Below, piece by piece: positions 49,140 through 56,508 of a DNA stretch of 64,000 nucleotides. Source of the stretch: Synechococcus sp. CS-1332 (GTDB lineage Bacteria; Cyanobacteriota; Cyanobacteriia; PCC-6307; Cyanobiaceae). The notes below the pieces were generated by a model. The model did no database searches. It was not told the DNA's origin and saw only the letters and a program-made list of their open reading frames with translations. The first letter of the stretch is position 1. Each line of letters opens with the position of its first letter. The stretch spans positions 1-64,000 of the forward strand of contig NZ_JAHLYP010000040.1 of assembly GCF_025127995.1 (NCBI RefSeq), in the 5' to 3' direction. The position numbers and the translations under genes were made by a program.

Positions 49140-50108
<969 letters not shown>

Positions 50109-50167: not shown

Positions 50168-51814
50168 TCAACGGCTGAAGTGGGCCTTGGCGTCGTAGAG
50201 GGCTTCGGCATCAATGCGCTCCAGGCCCCGTTCGCGGGCGAAGGCTTCGGTGTTCTTGCGCACCTTGCCCCGCACGAAGAAGGGAATCTTGGCGAGTTCC
50301 GCCTCCCCGTCGGCTGTCCAGAGGCTCTCGAGTGCCTCGCGCACGGCGGCGGCGGCCGTGATGGTACCGGGAGCGGGGGCCGGGGTGGCAGGAGCAGCCT
50401 CGGGTTCCCCTGTCCCCGCCGCCGTCGGGGCGCCGTCGCCCAGGTGGCTGCGATGGCCGTCGACGAATTCGAAGTCGTGGCGGAACATGCCGATCAGGTG
50501 CTCCTCCAGGCCCATCATCAGCGGGTGCACCCAGGAATCGAAGATCACATTGGCCCCCTCCCAGCCCATCTGGGGGGAGTAACGGGCAGGCACGTCCTGG
50601 ACGTGCAGGGGGGCGCTGATCACCGCACAGGGAAGACCGAGCCGCTTGGCGCTGTGGCGTTCCATCTGGGTACCGAGCACCAGCTCTGCCGCCGCCTCGC
50701 CCATGGCCTTCTCCACCACCAGGTAGTCGTCGGTGATCAGGGCCTCAAGGCCCAGCTCGGCGGCGGCGGCCCGCACCTCCCTGGCCTGCTCCCGGCTGTA
50801 GCTGCCCAGGCCCACCACCTGGAAGCCCAGTTCCTTTGAGGCGATCCGGGCGGCGGCGATGGCGTGGGTCGCATCGGCGAAGATGAACACCCGCTTGCCG
50901 GTGAGGTAGGTGGAATCGACGGAGCGGGAATACCAGGGCAGCCGGGAACGGCGCTCGGCCTCGCTCGGTTGCCCCTCCACCTCCTGCAGGTCGGCCGGAA
51001 GCGCCAGGTCGAGCACGCCATGGAGCTCCCGCAGGAAGGCGGCGGTGGCGCCGATGCCGATCGGCACCGTGCGCACCACCGGCTGGCCGAAGCTGCGCTC
51101 CAGCCAGCTGCACACTGGGCCCGCCACCTCGGGGTAGAGGCAGACGTTGGCATCGGCCGTGGGGATGCGGATCAGATCGGCGGGCCGGGCCCCGAGCGGA
51201 GCCACCACCGCCACATCGATGCCGTGCTCGGCCAGCAGCCGGGTGATCTCCAGCACGTCGTCGCGGCAGCGGAAGCCCAGCAGGCTGGGGCCCAGCAGGT
51301 TGACCCGGGGACGGCGGCCCTCCTGGCGCCAGCGGGACGGGGAGGGCTTGGGGGTGCCCGGAGCCGGCATCTCGCCCTTGAGCAGGGTGCGGACCAGCTG
51401 GTAGAAGGTTTCGGCCGCTCCCCAGTTCTCCTTCTTGGAATAGGCGGGCAGCTCCAGGTTCACCAGCGGCACCCCCAGGTTCATCCCCCCGGCCAGGGCG
51501 CCGGGCTGGTCCTGGATCAGCTCGGCGGTGCAGCTTTCACCCACCAGCAGCGCCTCGGGCTGGAAACGCTCAACGGCCTGGCGGATCGAGCGCTGCACCA
51601 GTTCGGCGGTGTCACCGCCCAGATCCCTGGCCTGGAACGTGGTGTAGGTGACGGGGGGACGCAGGCCCCGCCGCTCGATCATCGTGAACAGCAGGTCGGC
51701 GTAGGTGTCGCCCTGGGGGGCATGGAGCACGTAGTGCACCCCCTCCATGGAGGTGGCGATGCGCATGGCACCCACGTGGGGGGGGCCTTCGTAGGTCCAG
51801 AGGGTCAGTTCCAT
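50168..51814 (-). CDS. chlB: Dark-operative protochlorophyllide reductase subunit ChlB
   Basis: 548 residues. Forms the NB-protein with ChlN and contributes the Asp ligand to the unusual Fe4S4 cluster. The Asp is at residue 36 in [13 protein letters not shown], matching the known position. Other marks: [33 protein letters not shown] and [20 protein letters not shown] in pieces. The C-terminal light-independent-reductase domain ([19 protein letters not shown], about residue 505) is preceded by an Ala/Pro-rich linker. It follows chlN after 7 bases. Confidence 0.95.
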
Positions 51815-51821
51815 GGGGGTT

Positions 51822-53123
<1,302 letters not shown>

Positions 53124-53193: not shown

Positions 53194-53724
53194 TCAGAGG
53201 CGGCGGCGGAAACCCTCGCTGAAACCGGCGCTGCGCTCGTCGCGATCCCCATCGGCGCTGCGGCTGAGCTTCCAGACGTTGCGTCCCAGGCGACGGGCCC
53301 TGAGTCCACCCCGCTCCACCACCGATGCCCCCGGCCGGGCCCCCATCAGCTGGGCCACTTCGGCGGTGCTCAGGGGCGCGCCGGTGCGGATGGCCAGGTC
53401 GGTGATCTCGAGCCGCTGCCGCAGGCCCGTCAGATCGACCGGGCTTTCGGTCTCACCTCCCTCGTGCCAGTCGCCGGGGATGTCGTCGCCGACAGTGCCA
53501 AGGCGCCGCATCAGGCCCAGACCGATGAAGGCGAGGGCCTGCTCCGGCCTCACCCCCTCATCCAGCGCCCTGGTGATCCATTCTGAGACGCTGTCCTGGT
53601 CCAGGGACGTCCGCAGGGGCTGGGTCTCGCTCGCGGCCCCCGGGGCCGGGGCCCTCTGCTCGGAGGATCCGGCGGGGGACGATCCGTTGGCGGAGGGAGC
53701 GGTTGCGTTGCGCCGGGAGGCCAT
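53194..53724 (-). CDS. Conserved hypothetical protein with winged-helix-like C-terminus
   Basis: 176 residues. The N-terminal ~40 residues are Ala/Ser/Pro-rich. A middle helix region (SVSEWITRALDEGVRPEQALAFIGLGLMRRLG, in pieces) is followed by a possible DNA-binding element, LSTAEVAQLMGARPG, VVERGGLRARRLGRNVWKLS, which looks like helix-turn-helix plus wing. I recognise it as a cyanobacterial conserved type without a name. It may regulate the chlNBL operon just downstream; this is inference from position. Confidence 0.62.
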   Translation of the reverse strand: MASRRNATAPSANGSSPAGSSEQRAPAPGAASETQPLRTSLDQDSVSEWITRALDEGVRPEQALAFIGLGLMRRLGTVGDDIPGDWHEGGETESPVDLTGLRQRLEITDLAIRTGAPLSTAEVAQLMGARPGASVVERGGLRARRLGRNVWKLSRSADGDRDERSAGFSEGFRRRL

Positions 53725-53851: not shown

Positions 53852-55564
53852 ATGGATCGCTCGCCTCTATCGGCTTCCGGACGTTCTGACCTTCTGTCCC
53901 CGTTCGCCAATGAGGCCGCGCAAGAGGAGCCCGTGGAGATCGCCCCCGGCGTCTGGTGGGTGGGGGTACGGCTGGCCCACGATCATTTTCAGTGCCACGC
54001 CTACTTCATCGCCAATGGATCCGAAGGGGTGCTGATCGACCCGGGTTCACCACTCACCATCGACGGCACCCTGGCCAAACTCAGGCGGATCACTGATCTC
54101 GACGCGATCCGCTGGATCGTCTGCCACCACCCCGACCCCGACATCTGCGCCGCCCTGCCCAGGCTGTCGGAGGAGCTGAAACGCCCCGACGTGCAGATGG
54201 TGAGCGAATGGCGCGGCAACGCTCTGATCCGCCACTACGGCCACCGCTTCCAGCCTTTTCTGGTGGAGGAGCACGGCTGGTGCCTGCCGCTGCAGGGCGA
54301 TCGAAGGCTGGAATTCCAGCTGACGCCCTACCTGCACTTCCCGGGGGCCATGGTCTCTTACGACACCTTCAGTCGCACCCTGTTCTCCTCCGACCTGTTC
54401 GGAGGATTCGTGCCTGACAGCAACATCCTGGAGTCGGACGACGCCGCCTACATCATCGAGAACGCCAGGCCGTTCCACCAGCACTACATGCCCAGCCGGG
54501 AGCTGCTCAGTGCCGGTCTTGCCCGCATCCGCTCCCGCTGGCCTGAGATCAGCCGGATCGCTCCCCAACATGGCCACATCGTGGCCGCCTCGATCGTCGA
54601 TGAGGTGTTCAAGGGGCTGGGTGCCATGGACTGCGGCGTCTACTGCCTGGCCGATGCGGACACGAACCTGAAGCGCCTGCTCCACATCGCCGAAGCCCGC
54701 AAGCGGCTGACCGAAGCCCTGATGCACCAAAGCAGTCCCCTGGGCATGGTCAGGGCCATGGGCACCATTCTGGAATCCTCCGGTGAGGCCAGTGACTGCG
54801 AACTGGGGGTGAACATGCCCGTCGACGGCTGGACCACCTGGTGCGCAGGCGACGGCCATCCCGAGCAACGGGAGCCGAACCCCGACTGGCACCACATCTG
54901 CCTGCTGGGCCGTCCTGCCATGGTGCTGGCCCTGCGGGGCGATGGCACGGAGCATCCCTTTGATCCCGACATGGAGCGGATGCTGAGGGACTTCGCCGAA
55001 TCCATGCGCCCCTGGGTGGACAACCTTCTGCAGGATCAATCAGACGCGAAGGAGATGGCCGCCCTCAACACCGCGGCTTTCTCCGATCCGCTCACGGGAC
55101 TGGCCAACCGGCGTGCCCTTGAAGCGGAGAAGCTGGCGGGAAGCTATTCCCTGATTGAACTGGATCTCGACCATTTCAAGGACGTGAACGACGCTTGCGG
55201 CCACGACGCCGGCGACCGGGTGCTCAAGGCGCTTGCCCGGGTGCTGCAGGAGTCGGTGCGGCAACAGGACCACACCTACCGCCTCGGCGGTGAGGAGTTC
55301 CTGGTGGTGCTGCCTGAGGCCGACGAGGGCACGGCCCTTCAGGTGGCCGAACGTATCCGGTTATCGGTGCGGCAGCTCGATCTCAAGGGGGATGCCCCCG
55401 GAGGGCGCATCACGGTCAGCCTGGGGGTGAGCACCAAATCAGCCCTGCTGACATCTGACTTCTCCCAGGTGATGGGCCTGGCCGATCAGGCGCTCTATGC
55501 CGCCAAAGGAGCCGGCCGTGACCGGGTCTGTGCCGCCGACAATCTTGCCGCGAGCAGCCTCTAG
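53852..55564 (+). CDS. Diguanylate cyclase with N-terminal MBL-fold, ODP-type di-iron sensor domain
   Basis: 570 residues. Residues ~25-260 form a metallo-beta-lactamase fold of the oxygen-binding di-iron (ODP) kind: [20 protein letters not shown], then [12 protein letters not shown] (HxDxD metal motif), [21 protein letters not shown] and APQHGHIV with late His ligands. A ~130-residue helical linker follows. The GGDEF domain (about 410-560) has [13 protein letters not shown], the active site GGEEF, and an RQQD inhibitory I-site exactly 5 residues before it. So it should make cyclic-di-GMP with product feedback, perhaps in response to O2 or NO. It is divergent from the DPOR operon region. Confidence 0.88.
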
Positions 55565-55707
55565 GGCGGAACACCTATGGCGGCGAACCACCCGGGAGTA
55601 CCCTCCAGTCCTGGACAGCCCCTGGTGGCGGCCAGGGATCCCGGCGCTTCAACCCCCCCGGTGATCGACACGACCGTCTTCTCCGGGAGTTGGCGCCTGG
55701 CGCCGTG

Positions 55708-56508
55708 ATGGATTCGCAGCCCGCCCGTTCTTTCCTTCGCGACGACCGGTCGGACGCCAGACGACGGGCGGCGAACCTGCGCATCACCGGCACCGATGTC
55801 AGTGGCGAGAGCTCCGGCCCCAGCTGCGTGATCACCACCGACAGCGAAGGCCGGCGTCTGGCGCGCCAGTCGAGCCACGTGCAGTCGATCGAGCTGCGCA
55901 CCTACGTCTTCCTGGATTCGCTCCAGCCCCAGCTGGCGTCGTACATGGGCACGGTGTCCCATGGCTTCCTGCCGATTCCCGGCGATGCCTGCCTGTGGCT
56001 GGAGGTGTCACCGGGGATGGCCGTGCACCGGGTCACCGACATCGCCCTGAAAGCCAGCACGGTGCGGCTCGGCCAGATGGTGGTGGAGCGGGCCTTCGGT
56101 TCCCTGGCTCTGTACCACCGCGATCAGAGCAACGTCCTCCACTCCGGTGACGTGGTCCTGGAGGCCATCGGCAGCCGGGTGGAGCTGCGCAGCCGTTGTG
56201 AGGTCACCTGGACCGAGATCATCCGGGCGATCACCCCCGACCATGCCGTGCTGATCAACCGCCAGAACCGCCGCGGCTCGATGATCCAGGCCGGGATGAG
56301 CATGTTCATCCTCGAGACCGAGCCGGCCGGCTACGTGCTGATCGCCGCCAACGAAGCAGAGAAGGGCTCCAACATCACCGTGGTCGACGTCAAGGCCGTC
56401 GGCGCCTTCGGCCGCCTCACCCTGGCGGGCAAGGAGGGCGATGTGGAGGAGGCCGCCGCCGCCGCGATGCGCGCCGTGGCCCAGATCAACGCCGGTTCCA
56501 GGGCCTGA
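55708..56508 (+). CDS. csoS1D: Carboxysome shell protein CsoS1D (tandem BMC domains)
   Basis: About 266 residues: a ~55-residue N-terminal extension and two fused BMC domains that form a pseudo-hexameric trimer with a large gated pore in alpha-carboxysome shells. First domain: [30 protein letters not shown]. Second domain: [31 protein letters not shown] (with the Glu-Arg pair of the gate), [23 protein letters not shown] in pieces, and [15 protein letters not shown]. The ATG at 55708 is used. rdgB follows convergently, as in the picocyanobacterial gene order I recall. Confidence 0.92.

Follow-up and report, generated by a model that had tools for sequence, protein, structure and literature searches.

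A predicted soluble ODP-type di-iron diguanylate cyclase, probably acquired horizontally, between chlNBL and the alpha-carboxysome cluster of Synechococcus sp. CS-1332

Gene organization of the locus

We analysed a 64,000-nt stretch of DNA from the freshwater picocyanobacterium Synechococcus sp. CS-1332 (hereafter the window), in which an ORF check revealed an open frame of 570 aa at positions 53,852 to 55,564 of the plus strand. The predicted product joins an N-terminal ODP domain, a GAF/PHY-like middle region and a GGDEF domain, and its gene (the cyclase gene) lies between orf176 and csoS1D. On the left, orf176 (53,194 to 53,724), chlN (51,822 to 53,120), chlB (50,168 to 51,883) and chlL (49,140 to 50,078) run leftwards on the minus strand. 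As originally predicted, the three chl genes (53,120 to 49,140) stand beside the cyclase gene; all exceed the NCBIfam equivalog cut-offs for DPOR, which is oxygen-labile. The first gene on the carboxysome side encodes a csoS1D/CcmP-like shell protein (55,708 to 56,508, plus strand; Pfam and NCBIfam matches, start placed at a conserved ATG) and belongs, with rdgB, sbtA, cbbL and further genes, to the alpha-carboxysome cluster, where we take the names csoS2, cbbS and rdgB from general knowledge. The original prediction overlooked this flank as well as the middle domain of the protein.

Among 50 genomes of the family, csoS1D and chlN were each found in all 50 and orf176 in 48. In many genomes, including small ones of several other genera, chlN, orf176 and csoS1D are contiguous with no cyclase gene between them; in a few of the 50 (e.g., G022, G032 and G011) chlN is located elsewhere. 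The chlN-orf176-csoS1D arrangement is an old block of alpha-cyanobacteria, and since it is contiguous elsewhere without the cyclase gene, that gene is best read as an insertion into it. A Cyanobium-type lineage probably gained it by horizontal transfer, with orf176 and csoS1D as the flanks of the insertion site. Earlier work described chlorophyll genes next to the alpha-carboxysome locus and called the arrangement unexplained (PMC4207490); PMC4499774 also describes them there. In genome G186, which carries a cyclase remnant, a GGDEF protein and a GAF-GGDEF-EAL protein are encoded between rdgB and csoS1D (locus L074, 4404 to 9042).

The original prediction also placed a putative DNA-binding gene next to the cyclase gene. 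The adjacent ORF is there as orf176; it has no match in Pfam or NCBIfam, and its structural model offers at most a winged-helix-like C-terminus (best Foldseek E value of 0.26, with no significant PDB match). We therefore rejected its identification as a known regulator. Across the family, orf176 is found beside csoS1D and usually beside chlN, and its C-terminal core, possibly of winged-helix form, is invariant. This conserved partner of chlN and csoS1D is a better candidate for a chlNBL partner than the cyclase gene.

A 13-mer, GGGAGTACCCTCC (55,594 to 55,606, plus strand), was located by alignment approximately 100 nt before the csoS1D start. It includes a -10-like TANNNT hexamer and may be a control element. 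All 11 aligned loci carry it without a change, be the cyclase gene whole, disrupted or missing; searches with similar patterns did not recover it from 20 more distant loci. Because the element is kept regardless of the state of the cyclase gene, its sequence conservation suggests that csoS1D has a control region of its own downstream of the insertion. Our promoter and terminator scan for signals bearing on co-transcription of the cyclase gene and csoS1D returned nothing beyond chance. We rejected co-transcription as an interpretation, although the conserved element suggests, rather than proves, separate control.

Domain architecture and conserved motifs

The ODP family profile PF19583 matched residues 46 to 241 over its whole length (profile positions 1 to 194 of 194) with 165 bits, compared with a curated cut-off of 27.2, and an E value of 2e-48; with its flanks (residues 25 to 265), the domain occupies positions 53,924 to 54,646 of the plus strand. 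When a profile of 11 relatives was used as the query, it matched the solved ODP structures 6qrq/6qwo and 6qnm/6r9n as well as flavodiiron proteins. All six di-iron ligand positions are present in the window protein (H93, D95, D97, H162, D181 and H240) and align with the same residues in those ODPs; the HxDxD motif reads H93-P-D95-P-D97. At the C-terminus, PF00990 (GGDEF) matched residues 409 to 558 (55,076 to 55,525, plus strand) with 125 bits, and both the active site (GGEEF, residues 479 to 483, of the GG[DE]EF form of diguanylate cyclases) and the inhibitory RxxD site (R470-Q-Q-D473) are intact. These results confirm the two structural claims that had been made for the protein, namely an MBL fold with an HxDxD di-iron-type motif as in ODPs and a GGEEF cyclase with an RxxD feedback site.

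The AlphaFold model of the protein had a mean pLDDT of 86; at a pTM of only 0.48, how the domains are placed relative to one another is uncertain. Its ODP part matched the Thermotoga maritima ODP 6qwo with a TMt of 0.82. Between the two named domains, residues ~271 to 410 (54,662 to 55,081, plus strand) were modelled as helices, four strands and one long helix. Phytochrome-linked cyclases were the best fold matches of the model, aligned over ~375 columns, which exceeds the GGDEF domain alone. This region thus resembles a GAF/PHY-like domain followed by a signalling helix; since no Pfam family, GAF and PHY included, matched it in any of 21 homologues, the term denotes a structural resemblance only. 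The 21 homologues share the same ODP-middle-GGDEF architecture.

The ODP domain is under strong purifying selection where it is intact (dN/dS of about 0.10 to 0.17). In pairwise Nei-Gojobori comparisons, with dS up to about 0.8, its dN/dS against the window was 0.12 to 0.17 for other members of the clade and 0.36 for G177, and the other members compared among themselves gave 0.10 to 0.14. The G177 copy has lost four of the six ligands (H93 to N, D97 to E, D181 to G and H240 to Q), although its frame is open, its GGEEF motif is kept and it still adjoins chlN. The ODP sensor therefore looks constrained where intact and relaxed where its ligands have been lost, as in G177.

A second ODP-family protein is encoded in the window genome (contig C29; locus L002, 1432 to 2157). 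It is a stand-alone protein of 241 aa that matched PF19583 with 44 bits, carries an HxExD motif and has no flavodoxin domain.

Distribution and decay of the cyclase gene

The cyclase gene was found in 20 of 399 genomes of the order. A sample of 386 genomes across the phylum gave matches only in the genus of the window, a sample that missed other genera, since the search of the order found three matches in two of them. Thirteen of the 20 copies have an open frame, including that of G322, which ends at a contig edge and was excluded from the adjacency comparison. The other seven are broken (G010, G038, G040, G106, G186, G208 and G141), the G141 copy by an IS1595-type transposase gene. The lesions differ among the broken copies, which points to separate losses, although assembly errors may account for some of them, with G208 the least certain case. 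Six of the broken copies adjoin chlN; in all six, chlN and chlB are free of stops, as is chlL where it is covered (the G208 stretch does not reach it).

Nine intact copies adjoin chlN, all in one clade. Most relatives with chlN have no cyclase gene, among them G144, a close one by ChlN identity, in which the site is without it. Four copies are not near chlN. In G142 (Vulcanococcus), the cyclase gene lies between orf176 and csoS1D, with NDH-1-type genes after orf176 and chlN on another contig, and in G141, G273 and G226 either a long distance separates it from chlN or the two are on different contigs. The cyclase gene is thus patchily spread and has often been lost while the chlorophyll genes stayed intact.

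A scan of GTDB genomes yielded 26 loci. Those outside the cyanobacteria belong mainly to Actinobacteria MAGs and Mariprofundaceae and mostly encode full ODP-middle-GGDEF proteins; in the class of one actinobacterial carrier, 6 of 395 genomes matched. In the phylogenetic tree, the proteins of cyanobacteria and Actinobacteria fell into one group and those of Mariprofundaceae into another (support 100/100); cyanobacteria and Actinobacteria were separated from each other with support of 65/90. From the patchy distribution we infer that horizontal transfer of the cyclase gene, in either direction, is likely. No ChlL match at 1e-20 was found in any of the 13 non-cyanobacterial carriers, most of which are MAGs that may be incomplete.

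The scan also revealed a gammaproteobacterial MAG (locus L102, 5905 to 8240) in which a stand-alone ODP is encoded by a gene overlapping the beginning of one for a hybrid histidine kinase (HisKA-HATPase-receiver); this ODP is a probable separate sensor subunit.

Proposed function and alternative explanations

We consider the window protein most likely to be an O2/Fe(II)-responsive diguanylate cyclase. With a probability of about 0.72, it is a soluble ODP di-iron cyclase, probably acquired horizontally, whose closeness to chlNBL and the carboxysome genes is positional. The N-terminal ODP domain would hold a non-heme di-iron centre that responds when it takes up Fe(II) and O2 (possibly NO) or becomes oxidised. 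A resulting change in the dimer could pass by way of the GAF/PHY-like domain and its signalling helix to the GGEEF domain, where it would switch the synthesis of c-di-GMP, with an effect of O2 of either sign; the product may feed back at the RQQD site. We propose this mechanism because of the likeness of the protein to ODP, known to bind both iron and oxygen (PMC6978683), and to the hemerythrin- and globin-coupled cyclases (PMC8846402); by the former analogy, the window domain would bind both as well. In the window genome we counted 18 matches to GGDEF and 9 to EAL, and ComFB, considered as a c-di-GMP receptor, was not found in it; the ODP cyclase would therefore be one input, among the 18 GGDEF matches of the cell, to a general c-di-GMP network.

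The original prediction put forward, as a hypothesis, a link between the sensing of O2 or NO, c-di-GMP and dark chlorophyll synthesis. In such a model, the cyclase would control chlNBL or protect the labile DPOR. In one clade, the cyclase gene is indeed adjacent and divergent to orf176-chlNBL, and its nine intact chlN-adjacent copies would also be expected if position mattered. However, conservation of gene order with chlNBL, set in advance as a test, holds in that clade only; otherwise the cyclase gene is absent, broken or elsewhere. The block is old and exists without it, most relatives retain chlNBL without it, it decays separately beside intact chl genes in six genomes and is unlinked to chlN in four, and relatives occur in carriers with no chlL match. 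On synteny, decay and distribution, we rejected this link as the main reading; a functional link is not supported, and we regard it as very improbable. We give as little credence to a tie with the carboxysome side. The cyclase gene shares its strand with csoS1D, its stop lies 143 nt from the csoS1D start, and in Vulcanococcus it remains beside csoS1D with chlN elsewhere; however, the element upstream of csoS1D is conserved with or without the cyclase gene, three copies lie away from csoS1D, and the gene decays beside an intact csoS1D.

A third explanation concerns the sensor itself: the ODP domain may no longer sense O2 and may instead bind another metal or serve structural dimerisation, while other inputs, the GAF/PHY-like domain for example, govern the cyclase. 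The G177 copy, with its open frame and GGEEF motif despite the lost ligands, is consistent with this, as is the observation that zinc can load ODP in vitro (6qwo). We nevertheless consider it unlikely, given that the other intact copies retain all six ligands across large distances, that constraint on the protein is strongest in its ODP domain and that the known ODP is an iron- and oxygen-binding protein.

Relation to known oxygen sensors and cyclases

The ODP-GAFlike-GGDEF proteins of freshwater and microaerophilic bacteria apparently form an uncharacterised family. Our literature search, which did not reach the 2019 PNAS paper on ODP, found no paper joining an ODP domain to a diguanylate cyclase; ODPs fused to signal transduction domains have been reported, according to the TREND paper, which cites the 2019 ODP work (PMC7319448). 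Whether the family amounts to a so far unrecognised class of diguanylate cyclases under O2/Fe(II) control, exchanged between Actinobacteria and freshwater picocyanobacteria and shared by the iron-oxidising Mariprofundaceae, seems to us evenly balanced. If it is, oxygen would be wired to c-di-GMP by a further route besides heme globins, heme PAS domains and hemerythrins, through a non-heme, flavodiiron-related sensor present both in O2-producing picocyanobacteria and in iron oxidisers, which live at the limit of O2. The locus also counsels caution in inferring function from adjacency, the gene having probably been inserted into the old, unexplained chlNBL/alpha-carboxysome arrangement (PMC4207490).

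The ODPs of Treponema denticola and Thermotoga maritima (6qrq, 6qwo, 6qnm and 6r9n) have the same fold, the same six ligand positions and the HxDPD motif; however, those proteins stand alone and act on chemotaxis receptors, whereas the window ODP is fused to GAF/PHY-like and GGDEF domains. We infer a likeness to the hemerythrin- and globin-coupled cyclases (VcBhr-DGC and DgcO; PMC8846402), in which an O2-binding iron domain likewise controls a GGDEF domain, although their sensor fold is unrelated to the MBL-type di-iron domain of the window protein, a domain absent from the text of that review. Flavodiiron proteins (e.g., 1ycf) share a homologous MBL di-iron core; unlike them, the window protein has no flavodoxin domain, carries HxDxD rather than HxExD and has the architecture of a signalling protein, not of a reductase.
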